Below are positions 2,467-60,155 of a stretch of 64,000 nt of DNA, in pieces. Within the stretch, counting starts at the first letter, position 1, and the number at the start of each line of letters is the position of its first letter. This stretch comes from Paracoccaceae bacterium (GTDB taxonomy: Bacteria; Pseudomonadota; Alphaproteobacteria; Rhodobacterales; Rhodobacteraceae): assembly GCA_028284705.1 (NCBI GenBank), contig JANQRE010000014.1, forward strand, positions 62,001 through 126,000. The letters run 5' to 3'. The notes beneath the pieces are model-generated. The model was not told where the DNA came from. It was given only the letters and a program-made list of their open reading frames with translations, and made no database searches. The position numbers and the translations under genes are program-made.

Positions 2467-2911
2467 AGGAGGTGAACCCATCCTGACACTCGGACCGGAG
2501 ACGGTGTCTGACGACCCGGGTGATCTGCTCGCAGCCCGGGGTGTCTGACGAACCGAGTCGGTGGATTCGCAGCGGATCAGACCCAATACGATTCGCCTGC
2601 AGCATCGCGTTCAACGAGGTCCGGCCGATATCCGCCGGAAGTCGCCGAATTGTTTATGCGCTAACACAAAATGACTGTCACAGAATTTTGACACGTAACA
2701 TGTTGACGCTGCTTGGTTTTGGCAAATTGCCGCAGGGTCAGTTTACATTCAGTGCCGAGATCAGAAAATTTCTTCACAAAAATATTTATCAAACTCAATG
2801 GGATAGTGAATAATTTACCGAGAGACTGTATCAGAATTTACATTTACGGACGGAGGACACTGATTTCGATTTCGGGAGATTTTTCCGTCGCTGTCAGTTG
2901 AGGAGGCTGCC
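2467..2911 (+). promoter_or_regulatory. Intergenic region upstream of acs
   Basis: A 445-base stretch without a convincing gene. Its second half is clearly more AT-rich than its surroundings, as expected for a promoter region. An inverted repeat, TGTCA-8 nt-TGACA, lies at 2676-2693 and could be a regulator site. A good ribosome binding site (GAGGAGG) precedes the acs start. I could not identify the transcription start or the regulator. Confidence 0.45.
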
Positions 2912-38655: not shown

Positions 38656-40677
38656 ATGGTCTTCAAATGGTCCGGGTCGACAACAGGGGATCGGGTCCCC
38701 ATCGACGCTATCACCTACACACGGCTTTTATCTGACAGTCTTGCCTTTCTTGATGCGGATTGGTGGTCCGCGATGATCGAGCTTAAGGACACCACCATCG
38801 CCGATTTTGAAACCAAGGTCTTGGAAGAGTTTCCTGAAGGCCTCCTGGTGCCGGCGGCTTATGACAATGCCGACCGCAGTGCCTCAAAAGATCGCCAATT
38901 CGTCTCGATCTTTGCGCGCATACCCGTGCTTGACGCTCTGAACCACAAAGGCAACGCGTTCGGTGTCATTAATGTGCATCTTGGCCTCGCGACGCCTGAG
39001 ACTTGGCTCAATCATGAGGCTCAGCCTGCCGAATTGAAGCCAATAGACCTCTCATCCAAATCTGTCGTGATGGGAATGATCGATGATGGCATCGGTGTTG
39101 CGCATGAATTGTTCCGCGCTAGCCGGGACACCACGCGCGTCGAGTTTTGCGCTGTTTTGCCGACGCAACCCGACAAAACCCGCAATGATGTCACCCAGGG
39201 CCGTTCGCTGAACAAGGAGGAAATCGAAAAGTACATTGAGGATTTCACCTGGTCGGACCTTCTGGACGAAGACCTGTTTTACAGCCGCTCCGGCCAGATC
39301 GATCTGGCTGCGGGTAAGTTTTCACCGATCTCCCTCCGGCGCTCCCACGGAACCCACATTATGGGGATTTCGGCGGGGTTTGATCCCGAAGCCGAAGAAG
39401 ACGCCCGTCCAATCATCTGTTCCGTACTACCGCCGCGCGTCGTTGCTGACACATCCGGCATCAGCCTTTTGCCCGCTTTGTGTCTGGCCCTGCAATTGCT
39501 GAGCAAACAGGCGTCGCGCTACAGGCATGGCGGAGAACGCGTGCCGTTCGTGCTGAACTTCTCGTATGGCAATTTCTCCGGACCGCATGATGGCACCAGT
39601 GAGGTTTCGCGCCTGCTTGAGTATTTCCTCGCCCAAGACCCCGAGCAGAAACGGTGGATGACCCTACCGGCGGGCAACGGAAATCTGGCGCGGTGTCACG
39701 GGCAGCTTCAGTTCTCGGACGCCGGTTGCGACGAGATCGTCCTCGATCTCCGCGTTTTGCCAGACGACAACACGTCCAGCCATGTCGAGCTCTGGATGCC
39801 ATATGCCGACGACACGCCGCCTCCGGACTTTGTCTCGGTAACTGTGACACCCCCCTTCGGACCCGAAAGCGCGGTTGTTGACGCCAGAGAAGGCCAGAAA
39901 CAAACGCTTCATGACGACAACGGGCGTGTAATCGCCACTCTGCTTTACACATTTGAACCAGCGCCGACCGCGCGGGGGCTGATCACTCTGGCGATTGAGC
40001 CCACTGCGAGTTTGAGGCCAAATCAGGCACTGGCCCCGTCCGGGCGCTGGAAGATTAGCGTTCAACCAAAGGACATCGCGCCAGAGCAAAAGATCGAGGT
40101 TTGGGTGCGCCGCGATGAAACTCTGCCCGGATATCGCCCCGGAGGGCGTCAATCGTTCTTCGACAATGGCTGCTACGAACGTTTCGGACCCTTTGGGGCG
40201 CCTTTACCGGTCGATCCTTCCGGCGATACGTGCCCGGTGCGGCGCGCAGGCACACTCAGCGGATTTGCAGACGGGCCGTCCCCAATGGTCGTGGCAGCTT
40301 ATACAGAGAAGACCCGTCAGCTTTCATACTACTCTGCCGCAGGTCCTTTGACGCACACGCCGATGACGCCGCCGCCTCCGCGAAACGGGCCGGATGCATC
40401 CGCAGAAGGGGATCGGTCTTTGGTCAGATGGGGGGTGCTCAGCGCAGGCTCGCGCAGCGGCTCTTACGTGCGAATGAATGGAACGAGTGTCGCGGCTCCC
40501 CGTGTTGCCCGCAAGGCTTCAGACGCCATTGCCGACTGGTCATCGTCGGCGCGCGATTGGTTAGCCTGTGCCGTCAAGGAAAACCCGTTTGATCTCAGTC
40601 CAGATGCTAACGCGACGCGCACAGGCCATGGCGGCATCAAGATACATTTGGACTGGAAACGAAGAGCACCGAAGTGA
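38656..40677 (+). CDS. Subtilisin-like serine protease (S8 family)
   Basis: A 673-residue protein with the full catalytic triad of subtilases: D143 in 'MGMIDDGIG', H231 in 'SHGTHIMGI' and S611 in 'NGTSVAAP'. The 380 residues between His and Ser are far more than in simple subtilisins and include a beta-rich insert. No signal peptide is seen, so it may act in the cytosol or leave by another route. AGGAGG precedes the ATG, 11 bases after the haloperoxidase stop. A processing role for a product of the same operon (for example the repeat-bearing haloperoxidase) is possible; that is inference. Confidence 0.9.
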   Translation: MVFKWSGSTTGDRVPIDAITYTRLLSDSLAFLDADWWSAMIELKDTTIADFETKVLEEFPEGLLVPAAYDNADRSASKDRQFVSIFARIPVLDALNHKGNAFGVINVHLGLATPETWLNHEAQPAELKPIDLSSKSVVMGMIDDGIGVAHELFRASRDTTRVEFCAVLPTQPDKTRNDVTQGRSLNKEEIEKYIEDFTWSDLLDEDLFYSRSGQIDLAAGKFSPISLRRSHGTHIMGISAGFDPEAEEDARPIICSVLPPRVVADTSGISLLPALCLALQLLSKQASRYRHGGERVPFVLNFSYGNFSGPHDGTSEVSRLLEYFLAQDPEQKRWMTLPAGNGNLARCHGQLQFSDAGCDEIVLDLRVLPDDNTSSHVELWMPYADDTPPPDFVSVTVTPPFGPESAVVDAREGQKQTLHDDNGRVIATLLYTFEPAPTARGLITLAIEPTASLRPNQALAPSGRWKISVQPKDIAPEQKIEVWVRRDETLPGYRPGGRQSFFDNGCYERFGPFGAPLPVDPSGDTCPVRRAGTLSGFADGPSPMVVAAYTEKTRQLSYYSAAGPLTHTPMTPPPPRNGPDASAEGDRSLVRWGVLSAGSRSGSYVRMNGTSVAAPRVARKASDAIADWSSSARDWLACAVKENPFDLSPDANATRTGHGGIKIHLDWKRRAPK

Positions 40678-42716: not shown

Positions 42717-43208
42717 TTAGTCGATAGGGGCGGGATTGATCGCGGCGCGCAGGGCGACCATCACGGAGAAGCCGTTGAGGAACTCTTCCTTGGTCAGAAG
42801 CGCGTCCTCATCGAGATCGGCGCGGCGGAAATCATTGCCGAGCGACCGGTTCTGTTCCACAGCAGCAATCGTGCCGTCGCCGTCGCGGTCCCAGAATGAG
42901 AAGATCACGCGCAAGGCGGTCTCGTAGGCCTCTTCACGTCCCTTTTCTTCGGCGATCAACCGCATCCCGTAGTCCCAGGACATGAACTCTTTGAGGGTGA
43001 GCTGCCGATCTTCATCTGTGTCCATGGACACAAAGACGTCCTTGCCGAAGTTCCGAAACTGGCCCTGATCGAGATATCCGCGGTTCGTGTCGTCGATTCC
43101 GTCAAACAGCGTTTCGGCCAGTTCGCGGCCTTCACTGTCGGCGGCAATCGCAGGTGCGGCGACGGCAAGGGCGGCTGTGAGGCAAGCGGATGCAAGCGTG
43201 GTTTTCAT
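42717..43208 (-). CDS. Periplasmic EF-hand protein
   Basis: A 163-residue protein. The signal peptide ends around 'APAIAA' (residue 23). Four EF-hand-like loops follow: 'DDTNRGYLDQGQF', 'DTDEDRQLTLKEF', 'DRDGDGTIAAVEQ' and 'DLDEDALLTKEEF'. Those at 2-4 keep most Ca2+ ligands. The ATG chosen has AAGGAG 8 nt upstream and begins the signal peptide. It is the first gene of the operon with the ferric-reductase-like protein, so a Ca2+-dependent effect on that enzyme is possible. Confidence 0.87.
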   Translation of the reverse strand: MKTTLASACLTAALAVAAPAIAADSEGRELAETLFDGIDDTNRGYLDQGQFRNFGKDVFVSMDTDEDRQLTLKEFMSWDYGMRLIAEEKGREEAYETALRVIFSFWDRDGDGTIAAVEQNRSLGNDFRRADLDEDALLTKEEFLNGFSVMVALRAAINPAPID

Positions 43209-43254
43209 GGGTTTGGCTCCTTTCTGTTGGAAGTGAGTCGGTGTTTCCGACTTG

Positions 43255-43345
43255 ACTTGCATATGCATTACTTGCAATTACAACAGTTGTAAATGCTAAA
43301 TTGCAAATGCAACTCTTGCAGTTTGCAACTCAAGGAGCTACGCCC
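43255..43345. promoter_or_regulatory. MarR operator region
   Basis: Between the divergent EF-hand and marR genes lie a palindrome TTACAAC-A-GTTGTAA (43278-43292) and several copies of TTGCA/TTGCAA nearby. This repeated, AT-rich pattern is typical of MarR-family binding sites and would let the regulator control both genes. Confidence 0.65.
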
Positions 43346-43879: not shown

Positions 43880-44674
43880 CTAGGAACCTCCCGACATCGC
43901 AGCCGCCTGTGACACGGCCCATTGATCCTCAGGCGATGTGGATGCGGGCGGAATATACAGCGTCGATGCTGCATTCAGCGGTGCCTGCACCAGAGCTTCG
44001 AGGGGAATGCGATGGATGATCGGCTCACACCCCGGTTGGGTGGCAGCTTCATAGACCGACACCTCATGGCCCGGCGGATAGAACATCCGCAGTTTCGCAA
44101 CCAGCAGCGGCATCATCGGCGTGTCATATTGCCCGCCCTGATTGTACCCCTCGTTGCCCAGGATTCCGATCTGCCACAGAACCATTGAAGATGCAGGATC
44201 ACAGGGCCGTTTGTGAAACAGGAAGTCGGTCGCCTCGTAGGAACTGCACCCGGTCGTCGCGGGGTCCACACCGAGATCGGCGAACAAACAATCCTCCGCT
44301 GAAATTCCGGGCAGCATGACGGCCTCGAAACCTTCCGCCTTGGCCTGCGCCACCGCGATATGGGATGGATAAACGAACACACCGGGATGGCCATAGAACA
44401 CCCCACAGACGGTTTTTCCGTCGCGCACATGGCGCAGGATTTCTTCGACCATGCCGTCATATGTGTCGATGCGCCGTTTGCTTTCGGAGTAAAGCGTCTG
44501 AAGGCTGATGACTTCCTTGCCGAGTGAATGAATCATTTCCTCTGCCACAGGGTCGCCAACGACATAGAGCACGACATCGGCCCGTTTGATCCAGGCAATC
44601 GCCTCGACCGTCATCTGGCCCACGGTCCGCAAACCGGTGCCCACGACAACAAGTTGCCCTTTCTTATCGCTCAT
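43880..44674 (-). CDS. Borosin-type peptide alpha-N-methyltransferase (tetrapyrrole-methylase fold)
   Basis: A 264-residue SAM-dependent methyltransferase. It has the tetrapyrrole-methylase fold but matches the borosin branch (SonM/OphM-like) that methylates peptide backbone amides: 'VVGTGLRTVGQMT' (9-22), 'SKRRIDTYDGMVEEIL' (65-80, holding the Arg and Tyr that correspond to catalytic residues), 'YGHPGVF' (94-100), 'PGISAEDCLFADLGVDP' (122-138) and 'SSYEATDFLF'. No cobalamin or siroheme genes lie near. It is a stand-alone enzyme without a fused precursor tail, so the substrate must come in trans. Its ATG overlaps the stop of the PRMT gene (ATGA). Another small-molecule methylase of this fold is the alternative. 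Confidence 0.85.
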   Translation of the reverse strand: MSDKKGQLVVVGTGLRTVGQMTVEAIAWIKRADVVLYVVGDPVAEEMIHSLGKEVISLQTLYSESKRRIDTYDGMVEEILRHVRDGKTVCGVFYGHPGVFVYPSHIAVAQAKAEGFEAVMLPGISAEDCLFADLGVDPATTGCSSYEATDFLFHKRPCDPASSMVLWQIGILGNEGYNQGGQYDTPMMPLLVAKLRMFYPPGHEVSVYEAATQPGCEPIIHRIPLEALVQAPLNAASTLYIPPASTSPEDQWAVSQAAAMSGGS

Positions 44675-45837
44675 GACGTCGCCTCTCCGTAGGTGGCCGC
44701 ATGGATTGCTTCCGGTGAGCCGCTCATCAGCGCGTCCTTTTGGGCTTTCGACAGTCCCGCGGACTCCATCGTCTTTTCAGGGTTGGTCAGGTAGGAGACG
44801 TACAGCTCCGTATCGGCTGCGAGCTTGGCGAGGAATTTACCCAGCTCAGTCAGCCCCGGCGGACCGGTCTCATCACCCTCCGGTGCGGGCGTGTGCTGTG
44901 CGATCAACTCCCCACCCATCGTGTCTTGCGCTTGGCCTGGTTCGTCACCCACCGCAACCGACCACATCATCTGGAGGGGACCTGGGCCGACAGCTTGGGC
45001 CAAAACCTGAGCCTTGAATTTTTCGCCCTTCTTGACGTGCAAACGTTCGGGGCATGGCAGGATCAACTGACCCCAATGGGTTGGTGCGGCGTCCGGCGCA
45101 TTTGACAGCGTGACGCCCGGCGCCAGATCAGCCGTAAACCACGCGCCAAGTGCCGTGACATGGCACTCTTTGCCGATGGTGAAATCCAGTTCTGCCACAT
45201 AAGGTGCGCGTACCACGTCCGCGGTGTCATCCTTCGCATCGCTCACCCACAGCTCCTTCGCATTCGCGCCAAGATCGCCGGGGCGAATGACATAACGCGA
45301 CATCAGCAAGTCATTGACCATCTGCTCGCCAATGGGCGCCAGATTGAGGCCATAGGGCTTGCCATAGAAGAAACTCGTGTCGGTGCGCATGGAGGTAGTC
45401 ACGGGCGCCAGATGAGCCGTCACTTTTCGCGGAATAACTGTGCCGCCATCTTTGAGAAAGTGATCACGGGCCCAAAGCACGGCACCGTACATGTTCTCAT
45501 CGACACCGATTGTGCCCATCCATTCCGAGATGATGACGTCCACTTGTTCGTCCAGTTGCACAGCGCGAATGTCACCGTGCAAAGGAACGATGACATCGGA
45601 GAAGCCGTTCAGGGCTGCCAGATGTGCGCCGAGGGAACTGGTCTCGGACAGCTCCACCGCATAGACGCGCTTGGCCCCGGCTTGGGCTGCAAACATCGAC
45701 AGAATCCCGGTGCCGGAGCCGACATCCAGAACGACATCGCCTTCCTTGACGACCTTCATGATGGCTTTGCGAAACGCCTCTGTGCGGGGTTCATCCCGCA
45801 GCATGGTCTGATGGCTTGTAAGTTGTGCGTAATCCAC
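44671..45837 (-). CDS. Protein arginine methyltransferase with C-terminal borosin-precursor-like domain
   Basis: A 388-residue class I protein arginine methyltransferase. PRMT landmarks are all present: motif I 'VLDVGSGTG' (36-44), the double-E loop 'SEWMGTIGVDEN' (104-115), the beta-barrel, and the THW loop 'APTHWGQLILPCPE' (251-264). Residues 330-383 form an extra helical domain ('LGKFLAKLAADTELYVSYL', 'NPEKTMESAGLSKAQKDALM'). It resembles the docking domain of split-borosin precursors (SonA-like, LigA-like fold). The start is GTG at 45837, set by AAGGAGG 5 nt upstream; the TTG at 45861 lies before this site. It sits between the repeat-protein gene and the overlapping N-methyltransferase gene. 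True PRMTs are uncommon in bacteria. Confidence 0.88.
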   Translation of the reverse strand: MDYAQLTSHQTMLRDEPRTEAFRKAIMKVVKEGDVVLDVGSGTGILSMFAAQAGAKRVYAVELSETSSLGAHLAALNGFSDVIVPLHGDIRAVQLDEQVDVIISEWMGTIGVDENMYGAVLWARDHFLKDGGTVIPRKVTAHLAPVTTSMRTDTSFFYGKPYGLNLAPIGEQMVNDLLMSRYVIRPGDLGANAKELWVSDAKDDTADVVRAPYVAELDFTIGKECHVTALGAWFTADLAPGVTLSNAPDAAPTHWGQLILPCPERLHVKKGEKFKAQVLAQAVGPGPLQMMWSVAVGDEPGQAQDTMGGELIAQHTPAPEGDETGPPGLTELGKFLAKLAADTELYVSYLTNPEKTMESAGLSKAQKDALMSGSPEAIHAATYGEATS

Positions 45838-45862
45838 GACTTCCTCCTTATTGGCAGCCAAA

Positions 45863-45891
45863 GGAAGCCACCCGCTTCGGCGGGGGGCTCC
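45863..45891 (-). terminator. GC-rich hairpin between repeat-protein and PRMT genes
   Basis: On the transcribed (minus) strand a long GC-rich stem with a CGAA tetraloop forms between the repeat-protein stop and the PRMT ribosome binding site; a short U run follows. It should act as a leaky terminator or a 3' stabiliser so that the first gene is expressed more than the two enzymes. Confidence 0.55.
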
Positions 45892-45911
45892 GTTTTCTCA
45901 ATGTTGTTCAG

Positions 45912-46568
45912 TCAGAACCGAAAGATCGGTGGCCGGATCGGAAAGACCGGTCGGATCGGTGGCCGGACCACGAGGGTGGGCGGACGTACCGGGAAGACCA
46001 GAGGTGGCCGGATCGGCGGCCGAATGGCGAGGATCGGCGGACGGATCGGGAAGACCGGTCTGATCGGAGGTCTCACGACAAGCGTCGGTGGCCGGACCGG
46101 GAAGACCGGACGGATCGGAGGTCTTACAACGAGTGTCGGAGGTCTGACCGGGAAGATCGGCTGCCGGATCGGGAAGACTGGCTGGCGAATGGGAAAAACC
46201 GGTTGGCGGATCGGGAAGACCGGCTGCCTAACGGGGAAGAGGGTCAGAGCCTGCGGCCCATAATCCGCGCTGGCTCCGCTGTAATCAGCGCCATACTCGG
46301 ACCCGTCCGAGTAGCCCTGGTCATAGCCACCATAAGGGTCGTAGCCACCCTGTCCGTAATCGGCATAGGGATCGCCGGCGCCATAGGGATCGGCCGCGGC
46401 CATGCCATAGGGATCATAGGGGTCGTAGCCGCCGTAAGGATCCGCTGCCGCAGCGTCTCCATAGCCACCATAGCCGTAGGGGTCTTGATTGTAGGGGTCT
46501 TGGCTGTAGGGGTCGCTGCCGTCCCCATACATCCCATTATAGGGATCGTAGTCATAAGGATAAGTCAT
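45912..46568 (-). CDS. Two-part repeat protein, candidate methylation substrate
   Basis: A 218-residue low-complexity protein in two sharply different halves. Residues 1-108 are rich in Asp-Pro-Tyr-Gly, have 24 Tyr, and contain no Lys or Arg. Residues 109-218 consist of Pro/Val/Ile/Phe/Arg repeats such as 'QPVFPIR' and 'PPTLVVRPPIRPVF'. They hold 18 Arg and no Asp, Glu, Lys or Tyr. Arginines at 114, 121, 128, 135, 142 and 149 are spaced exactly seven residues apart. Codons vary at third positions (Arg as CGC, CGG, CGT, AGA and AGG) while residues stay constant, so this frame is under selection. ATG follows AGAGG by 6 nt. It is the first gene before the PRMT and N-methyltransferase genes and is their likely substrate (inference). 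Confidence 0.82.
   Translation of the reverse strand: MTYPYDYDPYNGMYGDGSDPYSQDPYNQDPYGYGGYGDAAAADPYGGYDPYDPYGMAAADPYGAGDPYADYGQGGYDPYGGYDQGYSDGSEYGADYSGASADYGPQALTLFPVRQPVFPIRQPVFPIRQPVFPIRQPIFPVRPPTLVVRPPIRPVFPVRPPTLVVRPPIRPVFPIRPPILAIRPPIRPPLVFPVRPPTLVVRPPIRPVFPIRPPIFRF
45915..46244 (-). repeat. Tandem Pro/Arg repeat tract
   Basis: The DNA of residues 109-218 of the repeat protein. Units of 21 bases (heptad type) at the start and longer composite units of about 51-57 bases later alternate through the tract. The repeat is visible on both strands, which creates long antisense reading frames. Confidence 0.8.
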
Positions 46569-46823
46569 CGTAAGCCTCTAAGTGCAAATGCATTCATACT
46601 AGCTTCACGCCACGCACTTGTTTTTAGGCTGGATCTCGCAATCAAATCTTATGCGAGCCTTTGAAATAAAATAAATAATACGCGCGGCGCTGTCGTAACG
46701 ATGACACTTCGAATTGCGCGAGTCAAATTCCTTGCGGGGATATCTGCTAAATCGGAAGGTGTCTGCCTTGAGAAAATTCACCCGTCGCAGGTTCGAACGC
46801 TTGCGATGGGTGGCTTTCACCTG
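46569..46823 (-). promoter_or_regulatory. AT-rich promoter region of the methyltransferase operon
   Basis: A 255-base region before the repeat-protein gene and after hypE. It is markedly AT-rich around 46660-46685. An inverted repeat, CTCGCA-11 nt-TGCGAG (46635-46657), lies within it and is an operator candidate. No gene is supported here; a 71-residue minus-strand frame has no ribosome binding site. Confidence 0.45.
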
Positions 46824-47870
46824 TCAGCAAATTCGCGGCAGTTGCTCACCCACCAGCATGTCGACCAGGCGCTGCCCTCCAAACAATGTGCGCATGATGA
46901 CACGACCCGCGGGACCCGCTTGGGCGGTGCCAATCGCGACGGCGTCTTTGCCCTCGGGCAGGGCGCGGATCGCATCCAGCGCTGCCTCCGCCTGCTCAGG
47001 CGGAACAAAGAAGACCAGCGTGCCTTCATTGGCCAGATAGAGCGGATCAAGCCCCAGTATCTCGCAGACGCCCTTCACTTCGCTGCGCAACGGGACCGAT
47101 GTCTCATCAATCTCGATGCTGACACCTGCCGCTTCCGCCATCTCGTTCAGCGCGGAGGCCAGTCCACCGCGGGTGGCGTCCCGCGCGGCGCGAATATCCG
47201 GCGCGGCAGCGATGGCGGTTTCCATCACAGCGTTCAGGCTTTGGCAGTCAGAGGTCAGGTCCGTTGAAAGCGCCATATCACCTCGGGCGGACATGATGGC
47301 GGCACCATGATCGCCCAACACTCCGTTGACGATCGCCACATCGCCGGGGCGGATGTTTTCGGCACGCAGATCGCGACCGGCGGGGATGACCCCGACGCCG
47401 GCGGTCGTGATGAAAACCTTATCCGCCGCTCCCTTGCCGACGACTTTCGTATCGCCCGTGACGATTTTCACGCCAGCTTTGTCTGCCTCCCGCTGCATGG
47501 AGGCAACGATACGGCGCAGAAGTGCGATCTCGCAGCCTTCCTCGATGATGAACGCTGCGGAGAGCCAGAGCGGTTTGGCACCCCCCACGGCCAGATCATT
47601 CACGGTGCCGCAGACAGCGATCTTGCCGATATCTCCGCCGGGAAATTCGACCGGCGAGACCACGAAACTGTCGGTGGTAAACGCCAGTTGCGCGCCAGCA
47701 TCCCTCAGCGCCTCATGGGTGAGCCGGGCCTGATCCTCAGCGCTCACCGGCTGAAAAACATCCGTGAAGACCTCCTCAATGAGGTCCCGCATGGCTTTGC
47801 CGCCACCACCATGGGCCAGCGTCACGCGTTCGCCGCGCAGACGCGAGGGTTTCGGAGCAACCATATTCAC
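46824..47870 (-). CDS. hypE: Hydrogenase maturation protein HypE
   Basis: A 348-residue HypE. It dehydrates the carbamoyl group placed by HypF on its C-terminal Cys to give the thiocyanate that becomes the CN ligands of the NiFe site. 'LAHGGGGKAMRDLIEEVF' near the start and the terminal 'PRIC' are the family marks. It starts at GTG within a 4-base overlap with hypD (GTGA); an ATG two codons later is possible. It is the last gene of the hydrogenase cluster. Confidence 0.96.
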   Translation of the reverse strand: MNMVAPKPSRLRGERVTLAHGGGGKAMRDLIEEVFTDVFQPVSAEDQARLTHEALRDAGAQLAFTTDSFVVSPVEFPGGDIGKIAVCGTVNDLAVGGAKPLWLSAAFIIEEGCEIALLRRIVASMQREADKAGVKIVTGDTKVVGKGAADKVFITTAGVGVIPAGRDLRAENIRPGDVAIVNGVLGDHGAAIMSARGDMALSTDLTSDCQSLNAVMETAIAAAPDIRAARDATRGGLASALNEMAEAAGVSIEIDETSVPLRSEVKGVCEILGLDPLYLANEGTLVFFVPPEQAEAALDAIRALPEGKDAVAIGTAQAGPAGRVIMRTLFGGQRLVDMLVGEQLPRIC

Positions 47871-49000
47871 GCCACATCCTCAGCGGCGCTGTATTGGAAA
47901 TAGGCCGCACAGGCGCCTTCCGAGCTGACCATCAAGGCGCCCAGCGGCATCTCCGGCGTACAGCCCTTGCCATATTGCGGGCATTCGAAGGGTTTGATGC
48001 GCCCGGTCATCACAGCTCCGCATTCGCACCCCTCAGGCTCTTGAATGGTGCGGTCACCAGCGCCATAGCCAACCCCGAATTTCGCTTCCGTGTCGAAGGC
48101 TTTGTAGCGATCGCGGATGCGCAGACCGCTGGAATCGATCTCTCCCAGACCGCGCCACTCGAAACTCGGGCGCGGGGCGTAGACATCGGCGATGGCCGCC
48201 AAAGACACCGGGTTTCCATGTTCCGGCACGATGCGAGCATATTGGTTTTCCACTTCCGCACGCCCGTCGCGGATTTGCTTAAGAACCATCAGGACCGATT
48301 GCAGAAGATCGAGCGGCTCAAACCCAGCAATGACGATGGGTTTGCCATAATCCCTTGCGATGAAATCGTAAGGGTGCGTGCCGATTACCATCGAGACATG
48401 GCCCGGTCCGACGAACCCGTCGAGGACCATATGCGGGTCGTCCAGCAGCACTTTGATCGGTGGGGGCACAGTGATGTGGTTGCAGAATACGCTGAAATTA
48501 CTCAGGTTTTCGCGATCTGCTTGCTGAATGGATAGCGCAGTGGAAGGCGTTGTGGTCTCAAATCCGAGACCGAAGAACACAACCTCTCGATCCGGATTGC
48601 GCCGCGCGATTTCAAGCGCATCGAGCGGAGAGTAGACCATGCGGATATCTGCACCATCCGCCTTGGCTTGCAGCAGCGACTTCTTTGATCCCGGAACGCG
48701 CATGGCGTCGCCAAAGGTCGTGAAGATCACTTCGGGGCGTTCGGCGATCTCGACACATTCATCGATCCGGCTCATCGGCAAGACGCAGACCGGGCAGCCG
48801 GGGCCGTGGATGAACTCAATGCCTGGCGGGGTTAGTTTATCGAGCCCATAGCGAAAGATCGCATGCGTGTGCCCGCCGCAGATTTCCATGATGTGCACGG
48901 GCTTCTCAGGCGTCGCGCCGATCTCGTTCACGACCTCCTCGATGGCCTTCAGAACTGATTTCGCGGCGACAGGATCGCGGAACTCTTCGACATATCTCAT
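47867..49000 (-). CDS. hypD: Hydrogenase maturation protein HypD
   Basis: A 377-residue HypD, an iron-sulfur scaffold that with HypC assembles the Fe(CN)2CO unit. It shows 'IMEICGGHTHAIFRYG', 'GPGCPVCVLP' and the cysteine-rich C-terminal part with 'EGCECGAVM'. It overlaps hypC (ATGA) and hypE (GTGA). Length is typical. Confidence 0.97.
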   Translation of the reverse strand: MRYVEEFRDPVAAKSVLKAIEEVVNEIGATPEKPVHIMEICGGHTHAIFRYGLDKLTPPGIEFIHGPGCPVCVLPMSRIDECVEIAERPEVIFTTFGDAMRVPGSKKSLLQAKADGADIRMVYSPLDALEIARRNPDREVVFFGLGFETTTPSTALSIQQADRENLSNFSVFCNHITVPPPIKVLLDDPHMVLDGFVGPGHVSMVIGTHPYDFIARDYGKPIVIAGFEPLDLLQSVLMVLKQIRDGRAEVENQYARIVPEHGNPVSLAAIADVYAPRPSFEWRGLGEIDSSGLRIRDRYKAFDTEAKFGVGYGAGDRTIQEPEGCECGAVMTGRIKPFECPQYGKGCTPEMPLGALMVSSEGACAAYFQYSAAEDVA

Positions 49001-49287
49001 TGCGTGCCCTCCAGCGCAGACCGGCCATCGGCCATCGCCTCCAAGGTCTCCTGCGCCTCGCCCAATCCGCGCAGGGCTTCGAGGGTTTTGGCGGCTTCCT
49101 CTTCATCGATCAGGCTCATGGCAAAGCCCACATGGATGAGTGCCCATTCGCCCACCAAACCCTCCAGCGGACCCGTTGCTACGCAGGCGACATTTACCTC
49201 ACGGCGCACGCCGGACACTTCGGCCATCGCCATGAGTTTTGCCTCATCGGTGATCTCGATGATCTGACCGGGAATTCCAAGACACAT
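48997..49287 (-). CDS. hypC: Hydrogenase maturation chaperone HypC
   Basis: A 96-residue HypC starting 'MCLGIPGQI'; Cys2 carries the iron unit between HypD and the large-subunit precursor. It lies 3 bases after the response regulator gene and overlaps hypD. Confidence 0.96.
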   Translation of the reverse strand: MCLGIPGQIIEITDEAKLMAMAEVSGVRREVNVACVATGPLEGLVGEWALIHVGFAMSLIDEEEAAKTLEALRGLGEAQETLEAMADGRSALEGTQ

Positions 49288-49290
49288 GGC

Positions 49291-50778
49291 TCAGTCCTCT
49301 TCGCTGTTGGCATTGGCCTTGCCCGGTTGGACAATGCCGTAACGGTCCAGTTTCGCCCGCAGCCCAACGCGCGAGAGACCGAGTTCGCTTGCAGCACGGC
49401 TCTTGTTCCATTTCAGACGGGTGAGGGTCTCGCGCAGCACGCGCATCTCGATCCCTTCAACCCGCTCCTTCAGGGTTCCTTCGCCGGTCAGCACGTCATT
49501 GGTGTGCGGGTCCTGTGCGACTGCGCAGGGGTCGGCTTGCAGGATGTGCCGCGAGATCAGCTCAGGACCAAGCAGCGGATCCTGGGAGACGATCAGCATC
49601 CGGGTCAATTCGTTCTCGAACTCGCGCAGATTGCCGGGCCAGTCATAATTGGCCAGAAACTCCACGGCGAGATCGGAAAGACCCTGCACCGGTTTGCCAT
49701 GGGCCGAGGCCAGATCGAACAGCATGTGTTGCGCCAGAATGGCAATATCTTCGGTCCGCGCGCGTAAAGGCGGCAGAGCTAGTTCGACAGATGCCAGCGC
49801 GTAATAGAGATCGTTGCGAAACTCGCCCTCCGCCACCATGGCGCTCAAGTCTGCGTGCGCTCCAGCCATCAAGCGCAGGTTGGTGGTCAAAATCTCATGG
49901 CCGCCCAGAGGTTGGAACGCTCCCTCACTGGCCACCCGCAAAAGGATCATCTGCATCTGCGGGCTGAGGCTTTCGACCCCGTTGAGAAACAGTGTGCCGC
50001 GATCCGCCTTCTGAAAGAGCCCCAGCTTGTTGCTGGGCACACCCGGAAGGGCTCCGCGTTTCGCACCAAGAAGCTCGATCTGCAACAACTCGTCGGACAT
50101 GCCGGCGCAGTTCAGTTCAAAGAAGGACTGGTTGGAGCGAAGCGAGCTGTAATGCATCGCACGCGCCATGGTTAGTTTGCCGGTGCCGGACTCGCCAGTA
50201 ATTAAAACCGGCACGTCGAAACTGGCATATTGGCGTGCGGTTTCCACCTGTGCGTTCATCGGTGAATGTGGAGAGCGCAGAACCTTCTCGAACCCCAACC
50301 CCTCGCGCAGGGCCTTGCGGCGGCTCTCCAGCTTGGTTTCCGCCGTGTTGCTGAGCACCCGCATTTCCAGCGACAGACGGTCGTGGTCGCGGGTAAGTTG
50401 AAACAGCTGCGCTGCGTTTTTCGCGGCCATCATCAGCTGATCGGGATGCCAGGGCTTGGTGACAAACTGATAGATACCCGCATCATTGATTGCGGCGATC
50501 ATGTCGTTAGTTTCGGTGTAGCCGGTGATGATGATGCGCACCGTTTCCGGCCAGCGTTCGCGCACCTCGGTGAGGAACTCGACACCTGTGCGCCCCGGCA
50601 TACGCTGATCGCAAAACACCACCTGCACAAAATTGTCCTGCATCAGCGCTTCGGCGGTGTCGGCGTCGGGCGCAGTGAGGCATTCGAATTCATCCTCCAG
50701 CGCCATGCGCATCGCAGCGAGGGAATGCTCCTCGTCATCGATCAGCAGGATCGTGGGCAGGGGGGCGGGCTTGCTCAT
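49291..50778 (-). CDS. hupR: HupR/HoxA-type response regulator
   Basis: A 495-residue NtrC-like regulator: a receiver ('ILLIDDEE', phospho-site in 'VFCDQRMPG'), an AAA+ domain with Walker A '[14 protein letters not shown]', and a Fis-type helix-turn-helix ('[19 protein letters not shown]'). The sigma-54 contact loop GAFTGA is absent ('GAKRGALPG'), and Walker B reads 'GTLFLNGVE' without the usual Asp-Glu. In Rhodobacter capsulatus HupR works with sigma-70 polymerase and responds to the HupT/HupUV H2-sensing chain; these losses fit that mode. The ATG overlaps the hypB stop. It probably controls hupSL. Confidence 0.93.
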
Positions 50779-51596
50779 TCGGCTGCTTGCACCTCCTGCT
50801 TTTGCGCAAGGTTCTGTCGCAGCCATCGAACCCAGGCCTCCATGCCTTCACCGGTACGGGCCGAGACGCGCAGGATTTTGATGTTGGGATTTATCCGGCG
50901 CAGATTGGTCTCATAAAGCTCCATATCGACATCGCAATGCGGGGCCAGATCGACCTTGTTCAGGATCGCCAGACGGGATGCGGTGAACATGTCGGGATAT
51001 TTGAGTGGCTTGTCCTCACCCTCCGTCACAGAGAGGATCGCGACCTTGCAATCCTCACCGAGGTCAAAGGCCGCCGGGCAGACCAGATTGCCAACGTTTT
51101 CGATGAAGAGCAGAGCGCCTTGGGAAAGGTTCAAATGCTCCATTGCGTGGCCGACCATGTGACCATCGAGATGGCACCCTTTGCCGGTGTTCACCTGCAC
51201 CGCAGAGGCCCCCGTCGACCGGATGCGGTCCGCATCGTTTTCCGTCTGCTGATCGCCCTCGATCACTGCGAGCGGTTGATCCCCAAGCGCTTCAATGGTC
51301 TTACAGAGCAGGGTGGTTTTCCCCGAACCGGGCGAAGACACCAGATTGACGGCAAATGCGCCGAGATTGGCCAGGACCACGCGATTGGCGGCGGCATAGC
51401 GGTCGTTCTTTGACAGAATGTCGGTCTCGATTTCGATCAGACGTTCCTGTGACACCCCCGCGACCTCGACCCCCGCGGGTCCGTGCCCGAAATGCAATCC
51501 GTGGTGATGGTCATGGGGATGACCATGGTCATGCTCGTGATGGTGGTGTGAATGAGATTTCACCTCGCCATCCCCGCATCCGCAAACAGTACACAT
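50775..51596 (-). CDS. hypB: Hydrogenase nickel-insertion GTPase HypB
   Basis: A 273-residue HypB. The N-terminus has the Ni-binding 'CTVCGCG' motif and a histidine-rich stretch (about 17-40) that can store Ni. The GTPase domain has '[11 protein letters not shown]' and 'NKVDL'. The ATG is inside a TGATG overlap with hypA. It delivers Ni2+ with HypA to the large subunit. Confidence 0.97.
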
Positions 51597-51937
51597 CACG
51601 CCACCTCCAAGTCTTTGATCCGCATTTCGTCGCCTCCCACAGGCATCAGCTTGCCGCCGCCGCAATCGGGGCAGGGGTCAAGCCGGTCGTCAATCTCCAC
51701 TTCTTTCACGCAGTCGTAGCACATGGCCCGACCGGGAAGATCGAGCATCACCAGAGCCGCGCCTTCCGCGGGCGAGCCGCGCATCACGATGTCGAACGCA
51801 AAGCTGAGCGCATCTTTCTCGACACCGGCGAAGCGGCCAAGCTCAACGCGCACGGTCTTGATCTGATCGACATTGTGCTGACGGGCCTGATCGATGATCA
51901 CCTCACGCATTCCTTCGCAGAGCGACATTTCATGCAT
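51596..51937 (-). CDS. hypA: Hydrogenase nickel-incorporation protein HypA
   Basis: A 113-residue HypA: the N-terminal '[10 protein letters not shown]' (Ni site with His2) and a zinc site with two Cys pairs ('CYDC' and 'CPDC'). It works with HypB. The gene overlaps the end of hupK and the start of hypB. Confidence 0.97.
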
Positions 51938-52826
51938 GTTCGACCTCCCTCAGGCGCACCGGGCTACAGGGGTCGAGAATGTCCATGACCAAGGGGGCAA
52001 GACCCGATTTCCCGCCAGGCAGCGTGTTGAGACTCTGCTCCAGAATGCTGCCCTCTGCCAAGAGATGATCGGTCGGTGTGATCCGCTCGAACGCGGTCAC
52101 AATGCCGTCCGACACCCGTGCCTTGATGGCATAGCAACCACGTGTCGCTGCGACGATTGCAATGCCCTGCGCGGGGGTTTTCGGCTCGGGCAGGCGGCGG
52201 GCGAGGCACATATCCAAATCAATCGCCCGCGCGGTTGCACGCCAAAGCGGGCCGCGGCCCTTCCGGCGGGCGACGTGCTGCAGGACCGGGTGGTCGGCGT
52301 GGCGCGTCGCAATGGAGTTCTCCTGCGCATCCTGTGTCAGAACAGAAGTGTCGGTTGCCAGCGGCAGATGTGCCGTGGCTTCCCCGGGGCCAAAGCTAAG
52401 GTCGATCTTGGTCAGGATTGCCGCGAGTTGCGTGTCACCACGCAGGAACATGTCAAACTCATCAGGCGTCCGGGGCATTTTACCAGCAGACCCAAAGAGA
52501 GTGCACCGCAGACCATCGCCATCATCACTCCAGCCCTGTGGGAGTGCCGTGGGTTGACCAAAATACCCGGGCAGTTTCAGACAGAGCTTCATCACATGAT
52601 CGCGCAACACTTCGCGGTGGAGCGCATCTTGCGCGTCGGCGGAGACCGGCAATCCGAAAGCCAGTCGTGCAGCAATCTCCTGAGCGGTGCGGCAGAGGTT
52701 GAACAGGCGCGGAAGCAGAGCGGCAGCGCTCTCGGTCGATTGACCGATCACCAGATCGGCTATCGGCAAAGCCGCGATCGGCTCTGGTCGCAGCCCGCCC
52801 ATCCGATGCTCTGTCCAGTCCAGCAT
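51930..52826 (-). CDS. hupK: Hydrogenase assembly protein HupK
   Basis: A 298-residue HupK, a distant relative of the hydrogenase large subunit that lost the NiFe ligands except a C-terminal trace ('[16 protein letters not shown]'). It is thought to be a scaffold in large-subunit maturation. Placement between hupJ and hypA matches Rhodobacter. Confidence 0.9.
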
Positions 52827-52830
52827 CCGC

Positions 52831-53610
52831 CTACGCTCCTTCCGACAATCCGCCGGTGATCAATCCGCGCCGGGTCGGGGCGACAAGCGGGTCATCGCCT
52901 TCCACATCGGGTACGGCCAGCTCGGCTTCGCGCGCTTGTCGTATGTCTGCGGCGCGATCTGTCTCCGCACGGTTTTCCTCATCGAACAGTGCCGACATGA
53001 CCGCCTCGGCCACCTCAACAGCAGCGGCGTGGGTCTTGAAATCGTTCATCATCGAGAACAAGGCACAGGCTTTGTAGCCACCGGTCATCTCGCGCACGTT
53101 GTGCAGGAATTCGTAGTCACCCGAGGGGAAGGAGATGACTTCTTTCTGACCGGGTGTCAGGTTCGACCAGTCCTCATCTTCACCTGGAAGTTGGATCAGG
53201 TTCATAAACCAGGGTGAGATCAAAACACCCAGCGGGCGCCCCTCAACCATTTGAAATCCAAAAGCTTCCACCGAGAGCATTTTGTTGACCATCGGCACGT
53301 CGCGCATCTTGGCGTGCCAGATTTCACGGAAATCCGCGACAAGCCGGGCGGTTGTGGTCCCTATCCGGTTCGCCTCAACTTGGGCCACCGAGCCGGGGTC
53401 TTCCAGAACCATGAACTGCTCTTTCGGTGCGCTGCAATTCGGGCAGGACCAATCCGGTGGCAAGGCCAGAAACGGGGTTCCAGGTTCAACCTGCCGGTAA
53501 TCGTCGCCATGGGCGGGATCGTAAGGGGTCCAGCAAATCTTGCATTCCATGATCGCCATCGGACTGATCTTGTCCGTCGCACCAAGAAAGGAGCCTTCGA
53601 AGCGGTTCAT
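52831..53610 (-). CDS. hupJ: HupJ assembly protein fused to a rubredoxin
   Basis: A 259-residue protein. Residues about 20-75 are a rubredoxin ('CKICWTPYDPAHGD' and 'CPNCSAPKEQF', four Cys). The rest is the HupJ/HybE-type chaperone domain ('LGVLISPWFMNLIQLPG'). In some species these are two genes (hupI and hupJ). Its ATG overlaps the hupH stop... the two genes are read in the order hupH then hupJ. It assists small-subunit or membrane assembly under oxygen. Confidence 0.92.
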   Translation of the reverse strand: MNRFEGSFLGATDKISPMAIMECKICWTPYDPAHGDDYRQVEPGTPFLALPPDWSCPNCSAPKEQFMVLEDPGSVAQVEANRIGTTTARLVADFREIWHAKMRDVPMVNKMLSVEAFGFQMVEGRPLGVLISPWFMNLIQLPGEDEDWSNLTPGQKEVISFPSGDYEFLHNVREMTGGYKACALFSMMNDFKTHAAAVEVAEAVMSALFDEENRAETDRAADIRQAREAELAVPDVEGDDPLVAPTRRGLITGGLSEGA

Positions 53611-54437
53611 GTGATCGCCTCCAAAACTTTTTTGATGCGATCGCCGCTGTCGATCAGGTCTTCTTCTGCCGCTAGTACAACCTCGGGAGCATGGGTGACT
53701 TCGAACGTGTCGAGGATCAATGTGTCCATCGAATTGAAGAACTGCACGCGCCAGACATGGGGCAGGGCAGTCGCCGTGATGCGGCAGTTGCCATAGCCGC
53801 GGGACAGGAGCGTGACGGACCCTTCGCCAAGCGCTGCATCAAGCCACAGCAGATCCGGCTCTGTATGAGGCAGAAGCGTCAGGTTGATCACATGAAGATC
53901 GGCCTCGCCCGTATAAGCTGCGGATTTGTCTTGAAGTTCCACCAGCAAGGGCGGGGCGTTTTGCACGCCGTCTTGCAGAGGGGTGTCGTTGCCGGTTCCG
54001 GCCCGGCGCGGCGTGAAAGGCGCGTCGGTGACGCATGATGGGATCGGCGCGACCTCGATGCGGTCAACGCCCGCGCCGGTAATTCGCCAAACACCGGCAA
54101 AGACACTTTCCTGCACCGCCAGCGCGGGCACCTCCCAGACCTTCGCGGCCACTTCACCTTCGCCCAATGTCTCCGAAATTAGGGCACGATTGGCGGCATC
54201 GAGGCCGGACAGATCAAACTGCGTAATCTCGCCTACGCTCAGGCAGGCCTCCGCAATGTCGCTCAGAAGCGACAGCGCCGGACCATAGGTTTCCGGCTCA
54301 ACTTCGACATCCGGCAGATGCGGTGCATAGGTGCGCATGTCCTGCGGCAGCGGCATGTAGTCGAGCTTTTCGTCCTGATCATCCAGTGGCTGCGATCCGG
54401 GGCCGAAACCTGTCGGGGGCATTATGAAATTGTCCAT
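53607..54437 (-). CDS. hupH: Hydrogenase accessory protein HupH (HyaF family)
   Basis: A 276-residue HupH/HyaF protein ('PLPQDMRTYAPHLPDVE' near the start; 'VWRVQFFNSMDTLILDTFEV' at the end). It is needed for small-subunit maturation in related uptake hydrogenases. Two consecutive ATG codons follow AAGGA; the second has the better spacing. Confidence 0.92.
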   Translation of the reverse strand: MDNFIMPPTGFGPGSQPLDDQDEKLDYMPLPQDMRTYAPHLPDVEVEPETYGPALSLLSDIAEACLSVGEITQFDLSGLDAANRALISETLGEGEVAAKVWEVPALAVQESVFAGVWRITGAGVDRIEVAPIPSCVTDAPFTPRRAGTGNDTPLQDGVQNAPPLLVELQDKSAAYTGEADLHVINLTLLPHTEPDLLWLDAALGEGSVTLLSRGYGNCRITATALPHVWRVQFFNSMDTLILDTFEVTHAPEVVLAAEEDLIDSGDRIKKVLEAIT

Positions 54438-54448
54438 CATAGAGGTCC

Positions 54449-54832
54449 TTATTCGGCAGCCAGAGGCAGGTTCAGGATTTGCGAAATCCGGGTCATGTAT
54501 TCCGCCCAGTCGCGAACTTTCGGGATCGCGCCGATCTTCGATCCGTCGCGATAGAAGATCAGGCTGGGCGTTTTGAAGACATTGGTCACATTGCGCAGTT
54601 CGCGCTCGATCTCGTCGCCGACAACGGCGCAATCGAATTGCTTTTGAAAGGCAATCTGCAGCTCCGGCAGAATGACCGCGACATCGGCCGTCTCAAGGTT
54701 GCGTTTCGCATCACCGGGAACAAAGAGTACATGCACCCCAGGCGCTTCGACAAAGGCAGAGATGGAGGGCATGTCCTGCAACTCGGGCCAGCCAAGCTCG
54801 TCGGTCAGTCGGGTGATCAAGGGGTGCGTCAT
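54449..54832 (-). CDS. hupG: Hydrogenase accessory protein HupG (HyaE family)
   Basis: A 127-residue thioredoxin-like protein of the HyaE/HupG family ('GVHVLFVPGDAKRNLETADV', 'TPSLIFYRDG') without the redox CxxC. It is a chaperone for the Tat-exported small subunit. The ATG has GAGGAG upstream. Confidence 0.92.
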   Translation of the reverse strand: MTHPLITRLTDELGWPELQDMPSISAFVEAPGVHVLFVPGDAKRNLETADVAVILPELQIAFQKQFDCAVVGDEIERELRNVTNVFKTPSLIFYRDGSKIGAIPKVRDWAEYMTRISQILNLPLAAE

Positions 54833-54842
54833 CAGGGTCTCC

Positions 54843-55157
54843 TCAGGCGGTTGTGTCACCCGCGTCGAAGGCGGCTTGCAGATGGGCCGGCAAACGCGGC
54901 CCTGTGGCTTCGAGATCGGCGAAGGCATCGCCTAGGTCGTGCCCGTCCATAAGCGCGCGCAGACCGCCCAAAGCGGCGCTGATCTTGGCCGCTTCGTCGG
55001 CAGAGATGACTTCACGGGCGGCGCCCAGAAAGTTCAGCACCCAGTCACCCGGCTTCGCATCAGGTGTGAGGGAAAGATCGATCAACTCGCCCGTCTCCGC
55101 GGCGCGCCCGGCGATGCCGGACACCTCTGAAAGCTGTATGGGGATACCGACACACAT
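54843..55157 (-). CDS. hupF: HypC-like chaperone HupF
   Basis: A 104-residue HypC paralogue starting 'MCVGIPIQL'. HupF protects the large subunit during maturation when oxygen is present. It lies 5 bases after hupD. Confidence 0.94.
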
Positions 55158-55162
55158 GGACC

Positions 55163-55771
55163 TCACTCCGCCGCCGGGAAGAACCGGTCATCGCCGGTGC
55201 GGCAGGCGGCGTCTTCGCTGGGGCGACCCTCTTCATAGGCGCCGCGCATGATCGCCGCGTCGGCCAGGAGGCGGTCATCCCCCTTGCCCGGTTTGGCGTG
55301 AATGCCAAGGTCCGCGAGTTTCTTCAGCGCGATGGCGATGGCGGGCTCGATTCGGGCGGCAACGATATCGCGCAGCCCGCCACCATAATCTTCCAGTTCC
55401 ACCGGCTGGCAGCCGATCAGGATCAGCGTCTCAGGGCAGTAGCCCATCAGGGTTGCGGTGGCGATGACGTCCTGAAAGCCTGTCTGATGCAGGCTCATTT
55501 TCTTGGCTCCCATGAAGGCAGGAACCTCGTCTCCCTCCACGACTTTCATTGTGCCGGGGGCGAGGCCATAGTCGATTGCATCGAAGACAAGAAGGATGCC
55601 AGCCTCTTCGAGGAAGGGCAGGAGGTAGAGGCCCTGCGTTCCGCCGTCGAGCAGCTTGACATTGTCGTCAAAGGCCCAGTTTTGCGCGAGTGTTTCGACG
55701 CAACGAACCCCAAAGCCTTCATCCGCCCAGAGCACGTTGCCGATCCCAAGAATGAGCACATTTTGCGCCAT
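55163..55771 (-). CDS. hupD: Hydrogenase maturation endopeptidase HupD
   Basis: A 202-residue Ni-dependent protease that removes the C-terminal tail of HupL. It shows '[18 protein letters not shown]' (Glu near 16 as metal ligand), 'VFDAIDYG' and '[10 protein letters not shown]'. The ATG follows GGAGG by 5 nt. It opens the accessory-gene block after a terminator and a 234-base spacer that may hold its own promoter. Confidence 0.95.
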
Positions 55772-56005
55772 TCTGTCCTCCCGTAGAGTTCCCTTTCGAG
55801 CGGTAACTTCCCTTCCGCTCACTCCTGAAGGTGACAATAAGGCTTTTGGTTTTGCTTGGATCAGTTTGTTAATCTTTTTGCCAGATTTCCTCAAATAACT
55901 GATTTTATTGTAAGTTTTTGTGTACGATGGCATTCTGCTGAACTCAGTATGGTAAGATACTATCCAATATTGAGACTTGATGATCATATGGTGACCATAA
56001 AAGAA
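55772..56005 (-). promoter_or_regulatory. AT-rich spacer before hupD
   Basis: A region without genes between the hupC terminator and hupD, AT-rich in the middle (55860-55990). It contains a palindrome TATGGT-G-ACCATA (55987-55999). It probably carries a promoter for hupD and the accessory genes; no clear -35/-10 pair could be fixed. Confidence 0.4.
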
Positions 56006-56034
56006 AAAGGCGGGCACGTGAGTCGCCCGCCTTT
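56006..56034 (-). terminator. Terminator after hupC
   Basis: A perfect 10-bp stem (AAAGGCGGGC with GCCCGCCTTT) and 9-nt loop follow the hupC stop by about 20 bases. On the transcribed strand a U-rich tract follows. It separates the structural operon from the accessory operon. Confidence 0.85.
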
Positions 56035-56055
56035 CACCAACCGATTGATCTGAGG

Positions 56056-56802
56056 TCAGTCGGGGTTGTCGTCCTTGAAGGTCCGATGGCCAGAGATCAT
56101 CGTCGAGACGATGGATTGCCGGCTCATGATGTCCTCCCGGATCGCCACGTAGATATGGATGATCATGAAGATCAGGATCCACCACATCCCCAAATGGTGA
56201 TAGGTATGCACGACATGGCTGTTGCCGCCCACAAGCGTGAATACCCATCCGAACATGTTATCCGCCCAACTGCCATGACCCAGGCCTTCGCCATACAGTG
56301 CGAAGCCGGTGATGATCATGAAACTGACCCCCAGCGTGATGAAGCAGAACATCGCAAGTTGGGCCAGCGGGTTGTGCCCGACATATTTCTTGGGCTGCTT
56401 TTCCAGAAACAGATACCAGCGGATTTCGAACCAGACCTCATGCCACCAGTCGCGCCGGAGAAGCGGCAGATAGAAAAGCTGTCTTGCATGATGATTGCCG
56501 AAAATCGCCCAATACATGCGTCCCAGAAAGCCGATCGCCAGGATCCAGCCCGCCGCGAAATGGGCGAAGCGAATATACCCGAAGACAAACTGATAGGTCG
56601 CCTCGGCGATGATCATCGTGGGTGGCGGCGAGCCGATGAAATAGCCCGTGATGCACAAAACCACGATGGCCAATGCGTTGATCCAGTGCCAAAGGCGCAC
56701 CGGAACCTCATAGACATAGACAGATGTCTGCCGGGTGACATGTTCCAGATCGTCCGCGTCCGCATCCGTGCCCGCGAGAGGGGTTTGAGAGGTGTCGGTC
56801 AT
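56056..56802 (-). CDS. hupC: Hydrogenase cytochrome b subunit HupC
   Basis: A 248-residue diheme cytochrome b with four membrane helices. It anchors HupSL and passes electrons from H2 to quinone. Seen are 'VYVYEVPVRLWHWINALAI' and the heme-ligand region 'HVVHTYHHLGMWWILIFM'. GGGAGGG precedes the ATG. Confidence 0.95.
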   Translation of the reverse strand: MTDTSQTPLAGTDADADDLEHVTRQTSVYVYEVPVRLWHWINALAIVVLCITGYFIGSPPPTMIIAEATYQFVFGYIRFAHFAAGWILAIGFLGRMYWAIFGNHHARQLFYLPLLRRDWWHEVWFEIRWYLFLEKQPKKYVGHNPLAQLAMFCFITLGVSFMIITGFALYGEGLGHGSWADNMFGWVFTLVGGNSHVVHTYHHLGMWWILIFMIIHIYVAIREDIMSRQSIVSTMISGHRTFKDDNPD

Positions 56803-56813
56803 GACCCTCCCCC

Positions 56814-57017
56814 CTACGCCCGGACCAGAATGCGGCGCAGTGCGCGGATCACTTCGCGCAGACCCAGACCGGCAGCAAAAGCGGCCAGCACAAGAACAAC
56901 CATGTGATCGCCTGAGGTGAACCAGTGGCTGTATCCTTCGGTCACGGCGGCCTCGTGTCCGCCATGGGCCAGAGCCGCTCCGGCGCTCAGGATATAGACT
57001 GTCATTGCATATTTCAT
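56814..57017 (-). CDS. Small membrane protein between hupL and hupC
   Basis: A 67-residue protein with a signal-like first helix ending at 'AHGGHEAAV' and a second helix ('HMVVLVLAAFAAGLGL') with a basic C-terminus. It contains several His. It lies 12 bases after hupL and 11 before hupC, so it is part of the structural operon. The classical R. capsulatus operon has no gene here. The His pattern recalls HupE/UreJ Ni-permeases, but it is far too short for one. Confidence 0.75.
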   Translation of the reverse strand: MKYAMTVYILSAGAALAHGGHEAAVTEGYSHWFTSGDHMVVLVLAAFAAGLGLREVIRALRRILVRA

Positions 57018-57029
57018 GTCGCTCTCCCT

Positions 57030-58820: not shown

Positions 58821-58823
58821 GGT

Positions 58824-59924: not shown

Positions 59925-60155
59925 GTGACATCCTCCGACTGGTCCCGTGCATGGCGGCCGGGCGGACCGGTGCCATCCTCCCCCTCAGGAATGCGACGGT
60001 ATGCGGATGGTTTCAAAGAATTCGGAGGTTTTGATGGAGAGTGAAATTATTCCATATATTTCAATATATTGTATGAAAAATTATCAAGGAAAGCGTGCGC
60101 GAATTCGGGAGGCCTTTGACCATCCCAAGCGCAAGAGTGGCCAGTCGCTTACCGG
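59925..60155 (-). promoter_or_regulatory. hupS promoter region
   Basis: The 231 bases between hypF and hupS. An AT-rich block at 60046-60090 contains a palindrome CAATATATTG (60063-60072). This is where HupR and IHF sites would be expected for an H2-induced promoter, but I could not match their consensus sequences with certainty. Confidence 0.5.

Follow-up and report, generated by a model that had tools for sequence, protein, structure and literature searches.

The window analysed in this work, a stretch of 64,000 nucleotides from contig JANQRE010000014.1 of a Paracoccaceae bacterium, harbors on its minus strand (positions 43880-46568) three open reading frames (ORFs), transcribed in the order RP, PRMT, MT and coding, respectively, for a two-block repeat protein, a protein arginine methyltransferase ending with a borosin-binding domain (BBD), and a borosin-type peptide backbone N-methyltransferase. 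We interpret this operon, with moderate confidence, as a split borosin-like system of new architecture, in which the dock (the BBD) is carried by the partner PRMT and MT acts on RP, which has no dock of its own. The borosin methyltransferase and PRMT families are known parts; the part that would be new is a dock placed on a second protein-modifying enzyme. No joint description of a borosin enzyme and a PRMT was found in the open-licence literature, and the term "PRMT" is absent from the accessible part of PMC11285071.

A previous analysis of the letters alone (hereafter, the sequence-only reading) had described three minus-strand genes in a row, the last two overlapping by ATGA; both observations were confirmed, the start of MT lying inside the stop of PRMT (Table 1). 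Its assignment of MT to the borosin (SonM/OphM) branch was also borne out: residues 3-246 match dbOphM (2e-64) and SonM (2e-60). Moreover, Y62, R68, Y72, and Y94 of MT align with Y58, R67, Y71, and Y93 of SonM, which are active-site residues (PMC8429565). These four residues are invariant in six aligned sequences and are also present in the two related loci described below, L054 and L133. On these grounds, MT is a predicted member of the borosin backbone N-methyltransferase family.

As for PRMT, the PRMT_C domain scores above the Pfam cut-off, and residues 13-287, which correspond to the catalytic domain and the barrel, align with PRMT1-type structures (1e-38). Residues D46, G48, and G50 of motif I, E113 and E122 of the double-E loop, and H262 and W263 are invariant across the three PRMT homologues, while the T of the THW loop is replaced by M in L133. 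The three motifs recognised in the sequence-only reading are thus present and, together with the beta-barrel, they are those of a type I protein arginine methyltransferase, to which the protein would belong. The likeness to CARM1, drawn in the same reading, holds as an analogy only, since the best-scoring structures are PRMT1, 6, 8, and 3, with CARM1 lower. Compared to the type I enzymes PRMT1, 6, and 8, with which it shares the domains, the double-E, and the HW pair, the protein of the window is bacterial, ends with a BBD, and lies in an operon with a borosin methyltransferase. A brief literature search on bacterial PRMTs retrieved no paper.

The BBD had escaped the sequence-only reading. The C-terminus of PRMT matches the BBD of SonA both in sequence (3e-4) and in fold; its fusion to PRMT offers a physical reason for PRMT and MT to belong together, and the two enzymes appear, from their sequences, to dock on each other. 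No core of the usual length follows this domain: after the BBD reference column there are 11 residues in the PRMT of the window versus 17-260 in 27 other BBD proteins, and the short PRMT tails (11-12 residues) differ in sequence, being IHAATYGEATS in the window and IQEALFKPVVTP in L054. In class 3 split borosins, the BBD and the core are embedded in one chain; here the BBD is present, but the core does not follow it, and for this reason the system was not assigned to that class.

The third protein, RP, did not match any entry of Pfam, NCBIfam, or PHROG at the limits used. In pathways for ribosomally synthesized and post-translationally modified peptides, a precursor made up of leader and core is cleaved to a product; no recognised BBD leader was observed on RP. 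The label "Arg/Pro repeat protein" given by the sequence-only reading applies to its C-terminal half (residues 107-218) and not to residues 1-106, which are rich in Asp, Tyr, and Gly and devoid of Arg. Block 1 contains 24 Tyr and neither Arg nor Lys (net charge -19), whereas block 2, made up of Arg, Pro, and aliphatic residues, contains 18 Arg and no acidic residue (net charge +18). A Pro occurs at position +1 or +2 of 17 out of the 18 Arg of block 2. Furthermore, 36 of its 112 residues are Pro, that is, a third are already N-alkylated; therefore, methylating the remainder would leave few NH donors. The charges of the two blocks nearly cancel each other in the window (-19/+18), in L054 (-33/+30, where block 1 is taken to include the non-repeat N-terminus), and in L133 (-33/+31), an observation rather than a test, as it comes from three proteins of different length, two of them nearly equal in value.

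The occurrence of the same association in other genomes was checked in 86 borosin methyltransferase loci, i.e., the best 80 of at least 566 confirmed relatives from a contig scan with the MT alignment, plus six plasmid loci; further PRMT-linked loci may exist beyond the best 80. Two of these loci (L059 and L064) share one contig, and a distant partner could escape notice where the upstream DNA is short (less than 1.5 kb in seven loci, less than 4.2 kb in 14). A PRMT homologue (E <= 0.01) was found in two of the 86. In L054, from a Reyranellaceae metagenome-assembled genome (MAG), RP, PRMT-BBD, and MT lie in the same order and with the same ATGA overlap, PRMT and MT being 51% and 68% identical to those of the window, and a subtilase gene follows the operon. 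In L133, from an Acidobacteria MAG and the last entry listed in the scan, PRMT and MT are 40% and 45% identical to their counterparts; a subtilase (1871-4522, minus strand), divergent from the two enzyme genes, carries at its C-terminus an array of FPTRPT repeats and, after it, repeats of YEGYEDPYG. Both RP modules are thus embedded in this subtilase, in reversed order with respect to the window, and a protease and the proposed substrate would be joined in one chain.

The co-occurrence of RP homologues with the two enzymes, on which the sequence-only reading had made its proposal of a common precursor depend, was found in this way: RP modules adjoin the enzymes in all three loci (window, L054, and L133), and an ORF combining the two modules occurs in 2/2 PRMT loci versus 0/84 other borosin methyltransferase loci (Fisher p 2.7e-4; 0/70 and p 3.9e-4 if the others are restricted to those with at least 4.2 kb upstream), the module patterns having been written after seeing the three proteins. 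Subtilase-like ORFs occur in 2/2 PRMT loci versus 5/84 others (p 0.006, with queries that included those two subtilases themselves), or in 4/55 of the others with full flanks. A search with RP in 372 genomes of the class of the window (E <= 1e-6) matched only the window's own genome. In phylogenetic trees, the three PRMTs form one clade (support 100/99, 29 rows, with long-branch warnings for some rows), while the three MTs fall within a clade of 19 rows (SH-aLRT 99, quick tree), in which that of L133 does not group as sister to those of the window and L054; this suggests either that the PRMT-MT pairing was kept while other members lost PRMT, or that partners were exchanged.

Among the known systems closest to the operon is SonM/SonA, the type IV split borosin of Shewanella oneidensis, with which it shares the methyltransferase family, the four active-site residues, a separate methyltransferase gene, and the sequence and five-helix fold of the BBD. 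In SonA, however, a single short chain comprises both BBD and core, whereas in the window PRMT ends with the BBD and the proposed core is provided by a third protein. The fused borosins OphMA and dbOphMA share the MT domain (2e-64) and have a clasp structurally similar to the BBD, but methyltransferase, clasp, and core of OphMA lie in one chain, without a PRMT, and the system of the window is split. In class 2 borosins, the methyltransferase and the BBD are in one chain and the core is separate (PMC11395268); a core in trans, off the BBD-bearing chain, is shared with the window, where the BBD instead resides on a different enzyme, itself a methyltransferase.

According to the interpretation that we favour, the docking, the methylations, and the function of the product, which we infer, would be as follows. 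The PRMT-BBD would bind MT as SonA binds SonM, and the resulting complex would bring two S-adenosylmethionine-dependent active sites to RP, which is probably methylated in two ways. PRMT would modify the guanidines of the Pro-flanked Arg of block 2, and MT the backbone amides of Ile, Val, Leu, or Arg lying between prolines in the same block. These modifications would yield a basic, Pro-rich array in which few free NH donors are left and which remains attached to a charge-matched acidic Tyr-rich block, and the subtilase, where present (L054 and L133), might trim or release it, a step for which the indications are weaker. A BBD fused to a second enzyme would represent a leader moved off the substrate, and thus a modification complex working in trans. 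If RP is modified, eukaryote-type arginine methylation and backbone N-methylation would be joined in one polymer, a simple set of three genes would be available for N-methylated, protease-resistant repeat proteins, and a bacterial PRMT would have a testable substrate.

Some points weigh against this interpretation: the loci are few, the dual methylation is a prediction from the genes, and no BBD was detected in the PRMT and MT pair of L133. The last point also speaks against a different proposal, according to which PRMT itself is the borosin substrate, MT methylating the short tail after the BBD and thereby regulating or tagging PRMT, with RP a substrate of PRMT only. In SonA the BBD-bearing chain is indeed the methylated one (PMC8429565), and the PRMT and MT genes overlap; nevertheless, a tail of only 11-12 residues that differs between the window and L054 makes this proposal unlikely. 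The BBD might also act as a regulator, occupying the docking site and keeping MT inactive or tied to PRMT, while MT acts on some other protein. The SonA BBD alone does inhibit SonM, with an inhibition constant (Ki) of 3.9 uM (PMC8429565), but the RP modules stand beside the enzymes in each of the three loci, and inspection of the ORF list of the operon, made by eye and without a BBD query of the remaining window, revealed no further BBD-like or core-like ORF; we consider this regulatory role quite improbable. Lastly, the three genes might be adjacent by accident, as the lack of the system in 20 congeneric genomes (PRMT query) and its accessory position next to hyp genes could suggest. However, a different family shows the same order and ATGA overlap and a different phylum a related arrangement; these and the BBD on PRMT speak against chance, which, unless L054 and L133 are assembly artefacts, is extremely unlikely.

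The fate of RP is a separate issue. FUS-like proteins, which combine a Tyr-rich and an Arg-rich domain, are modified by PRMT1, and RP shares with them the layout of a Tyr block, an Arg block, and a PRMT, with no sequence relation claimed; their Arg residues are in RGG, those of RP in FPxRPP, and the window has the backbone methyltransferase in addition. RP might be a permanent structural or condensate-forming protein, whose self-association is tuned by methylation, a hypothesis compatible with the one preferred for the enzymes. This layout and the nearly equal and opposite charges of the blocks, seen in three proteins that differ in length, argue for it, and hypomethylation of FUS promotes irreversible condensates (PMC10726623). 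On the other hand, three proteins are few for an argument on charge, a subtilase is linked to the operon in L054 and L133, and the borosins covered by PMC8429565, PMC11395268, and PMC11285071 consist of peptides or of precursors whose cores are short, so that we hold this hypothesis to be possible, though doubtful. Its most specific version, a bacterial, dually methylated block copolymer whose acidic Tyr-rich and charge-matched Arg/Pro blocks form a self-associating FUS-like material, tuned or locked by the docked PRMT-MT pair as it turns the Arg/Pro block into a guanidine- and backbone-methylated array poor in NH donors, is speculative and in our opinion improbable; if true, it would imply backbone N-methylation of a large protein and not of a peptide natural product.

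Table 1. Features of the RP-PRMT-MT operon (window positions).
Feature	Position	Strand	Length or basis
RP, two-block repeat protein, proposed substrate	45912-46568	-	218 aa
RP block 1, residues 1-106, Asp/Tyr/Gly/Pro, DPYG-like repeats	46251-46568	-	composition
RP block 2, residues 107-218, FP[VI]R[QP]P / RPPTLVVRPPIRP repeats, proposed core	45915-46250	-	composition
RNA hairpin between RP and PRMT (predicted)	45864-45891	-	gap fold and terminator-like scan match
AGGAGG, likely ribosome-binding site of PRMT	45843-45848	-	read from sequence
PRMT with C-terminal BBD	44671-45837	-	388 aa from GTG; ORF listed from TTG 45861
BBD, PRMT C-terminus, five predicted helices	44689-44847	-	sequence and fold match
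MT, borosin-type peptide backbone N-methyltransferase	43880-44674	-	264 aa

The start of PRMT is more likely at the GTG than at the listed TTG, because AGGAGG lies just upstream and two homologues, whose own starts were chosen by us, can be aligned from about there. The frame of RP competes with an antisense ORF (45825-46664, plus strand) and is supported by L133, which reads both kinds of repeat in frame with the subtilase domain. The gap between RP and PRMT, 74 bases up to the GTG, contains a predicted hairpin: the 62 bases folded gave a z of -2.10, with 5/200 shuffles folding equally well, and the corresponding gap of L054 gave -3.36, with 0/200 shuffles as good. A terminator-like scan match also falls here, six being found in that region versus 2.8 expected. 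The hairpin is possibly an attenuator or a 3' stabiliser favouring RP over the enzymes; a larger amount of precursor than of enzyme is usual in many precursor operons, and the hairpins in the two gaps would fit more RP than enzyme.

Searches with PRMT in other datasets gave the following results. A contig scan with PRMT alone retrieved no relative, and in 101 genomes 14 matched at 1e-3 (own included), the next best at 8e-18. Among 20 congeners there was a single short match (6e-5 over 77 residues). Matches at 1e-3 were present in 211 out of 385 genomes of the class, mostly weak, and the best one apart from the own genome (2.5e-41) belonged to a genome without a listed borosin methyltransferase. 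Only one of the 146 relatives of the L054 genome, L054 itself, matched at 1e-40. PRMT homologues are fairly common in the class of the L133 genome (G733, G667, and others; 18/250 at 1e-35, itself included), and the seven best other loci of this class harbor no borosin methyltransferase, BBD match, or two-module ORF in the surrounding 13-15 kb. An ORF of one locus, L170, carries seven RP-type triplets but lacks DPY and shows no evident repeat. Plasmids gave 11 PRMT-like records, none reaching 80% cover, and 20 MT records, with no PRMT beside MT in the six loci examined; viral contigs gave one weak match to the PRMT alignment.

Among the relatives of MT, predicted cores that are repetitive or rich in Pro occur. 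In a Nitrosomonas MAG (L126, 5037-5917, same MT clade), the FTIPPQ repeats, the BBD protein, and the borosin methyltransferase are each encoded by a separate gene, possibly a PRMT-free version of the same three-part logic; several frames are open across the repeat, and the reading adopted is the one that has an ATG. The BBD is joined to MPAGAVAPQV repeats in L061 and L071 (same clade) and to VVYAAG repeats in L081 (another clade). Borosin methyltransferases fused to long repeat tails were observed in L019 (1426-3147, EQHVTEQHE) and L020 (1417-3111, AELNDA). On a Bradyrhizobium plasmid (L051, 5659-8730), a short BBD protein with an Arg/Ile-rich end lies beside a borosin methyltransferase, and alongside them, on the other strand, is a gene with a prolyl oligopeptidase family annotation. 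On psymA of Sinorhizobium meliloti (L049, 3174-6747), a BBD protein and a borosin methyltransferase have in their vicinity a nitroreductase-family gene and a small protein that matches no Pfam entry and might be another precursor.

In the genome, the operon comes after the hyp genes that belong to a NiFe hydrogenase cluster. Out of 20 congeners, one (G004) has hypE (E <= 1e-60, 80% identical), and the 14 kb around it contain no match to RP, PRMT, or MT; the operon is therefore accessory and probably horizontally acquired. The uptake hydrogenase cluster (46824-62549) includes the small and large subunits, HycI, HupH, HybE, a HypB-like protein, a sigma-54 regulator, HypD, a HypE-like protein, HypF, and HypC (the latter by position only), and 52831-53610 is a rubredoxin-HybE fusion. 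On the other side, an S8 subtilase-like protein (38656-40677, Pfam 1.6e-10) is encoded about 3.2 kb from MT on the opposite strand, with no detectable homology to the subtilases beside the L054 and L133 operons. An EF-hand protein (42717-43277), with a below-cut-off match to lanmodulin (2.5e-9), adjoins a ferric reductase-like gene.
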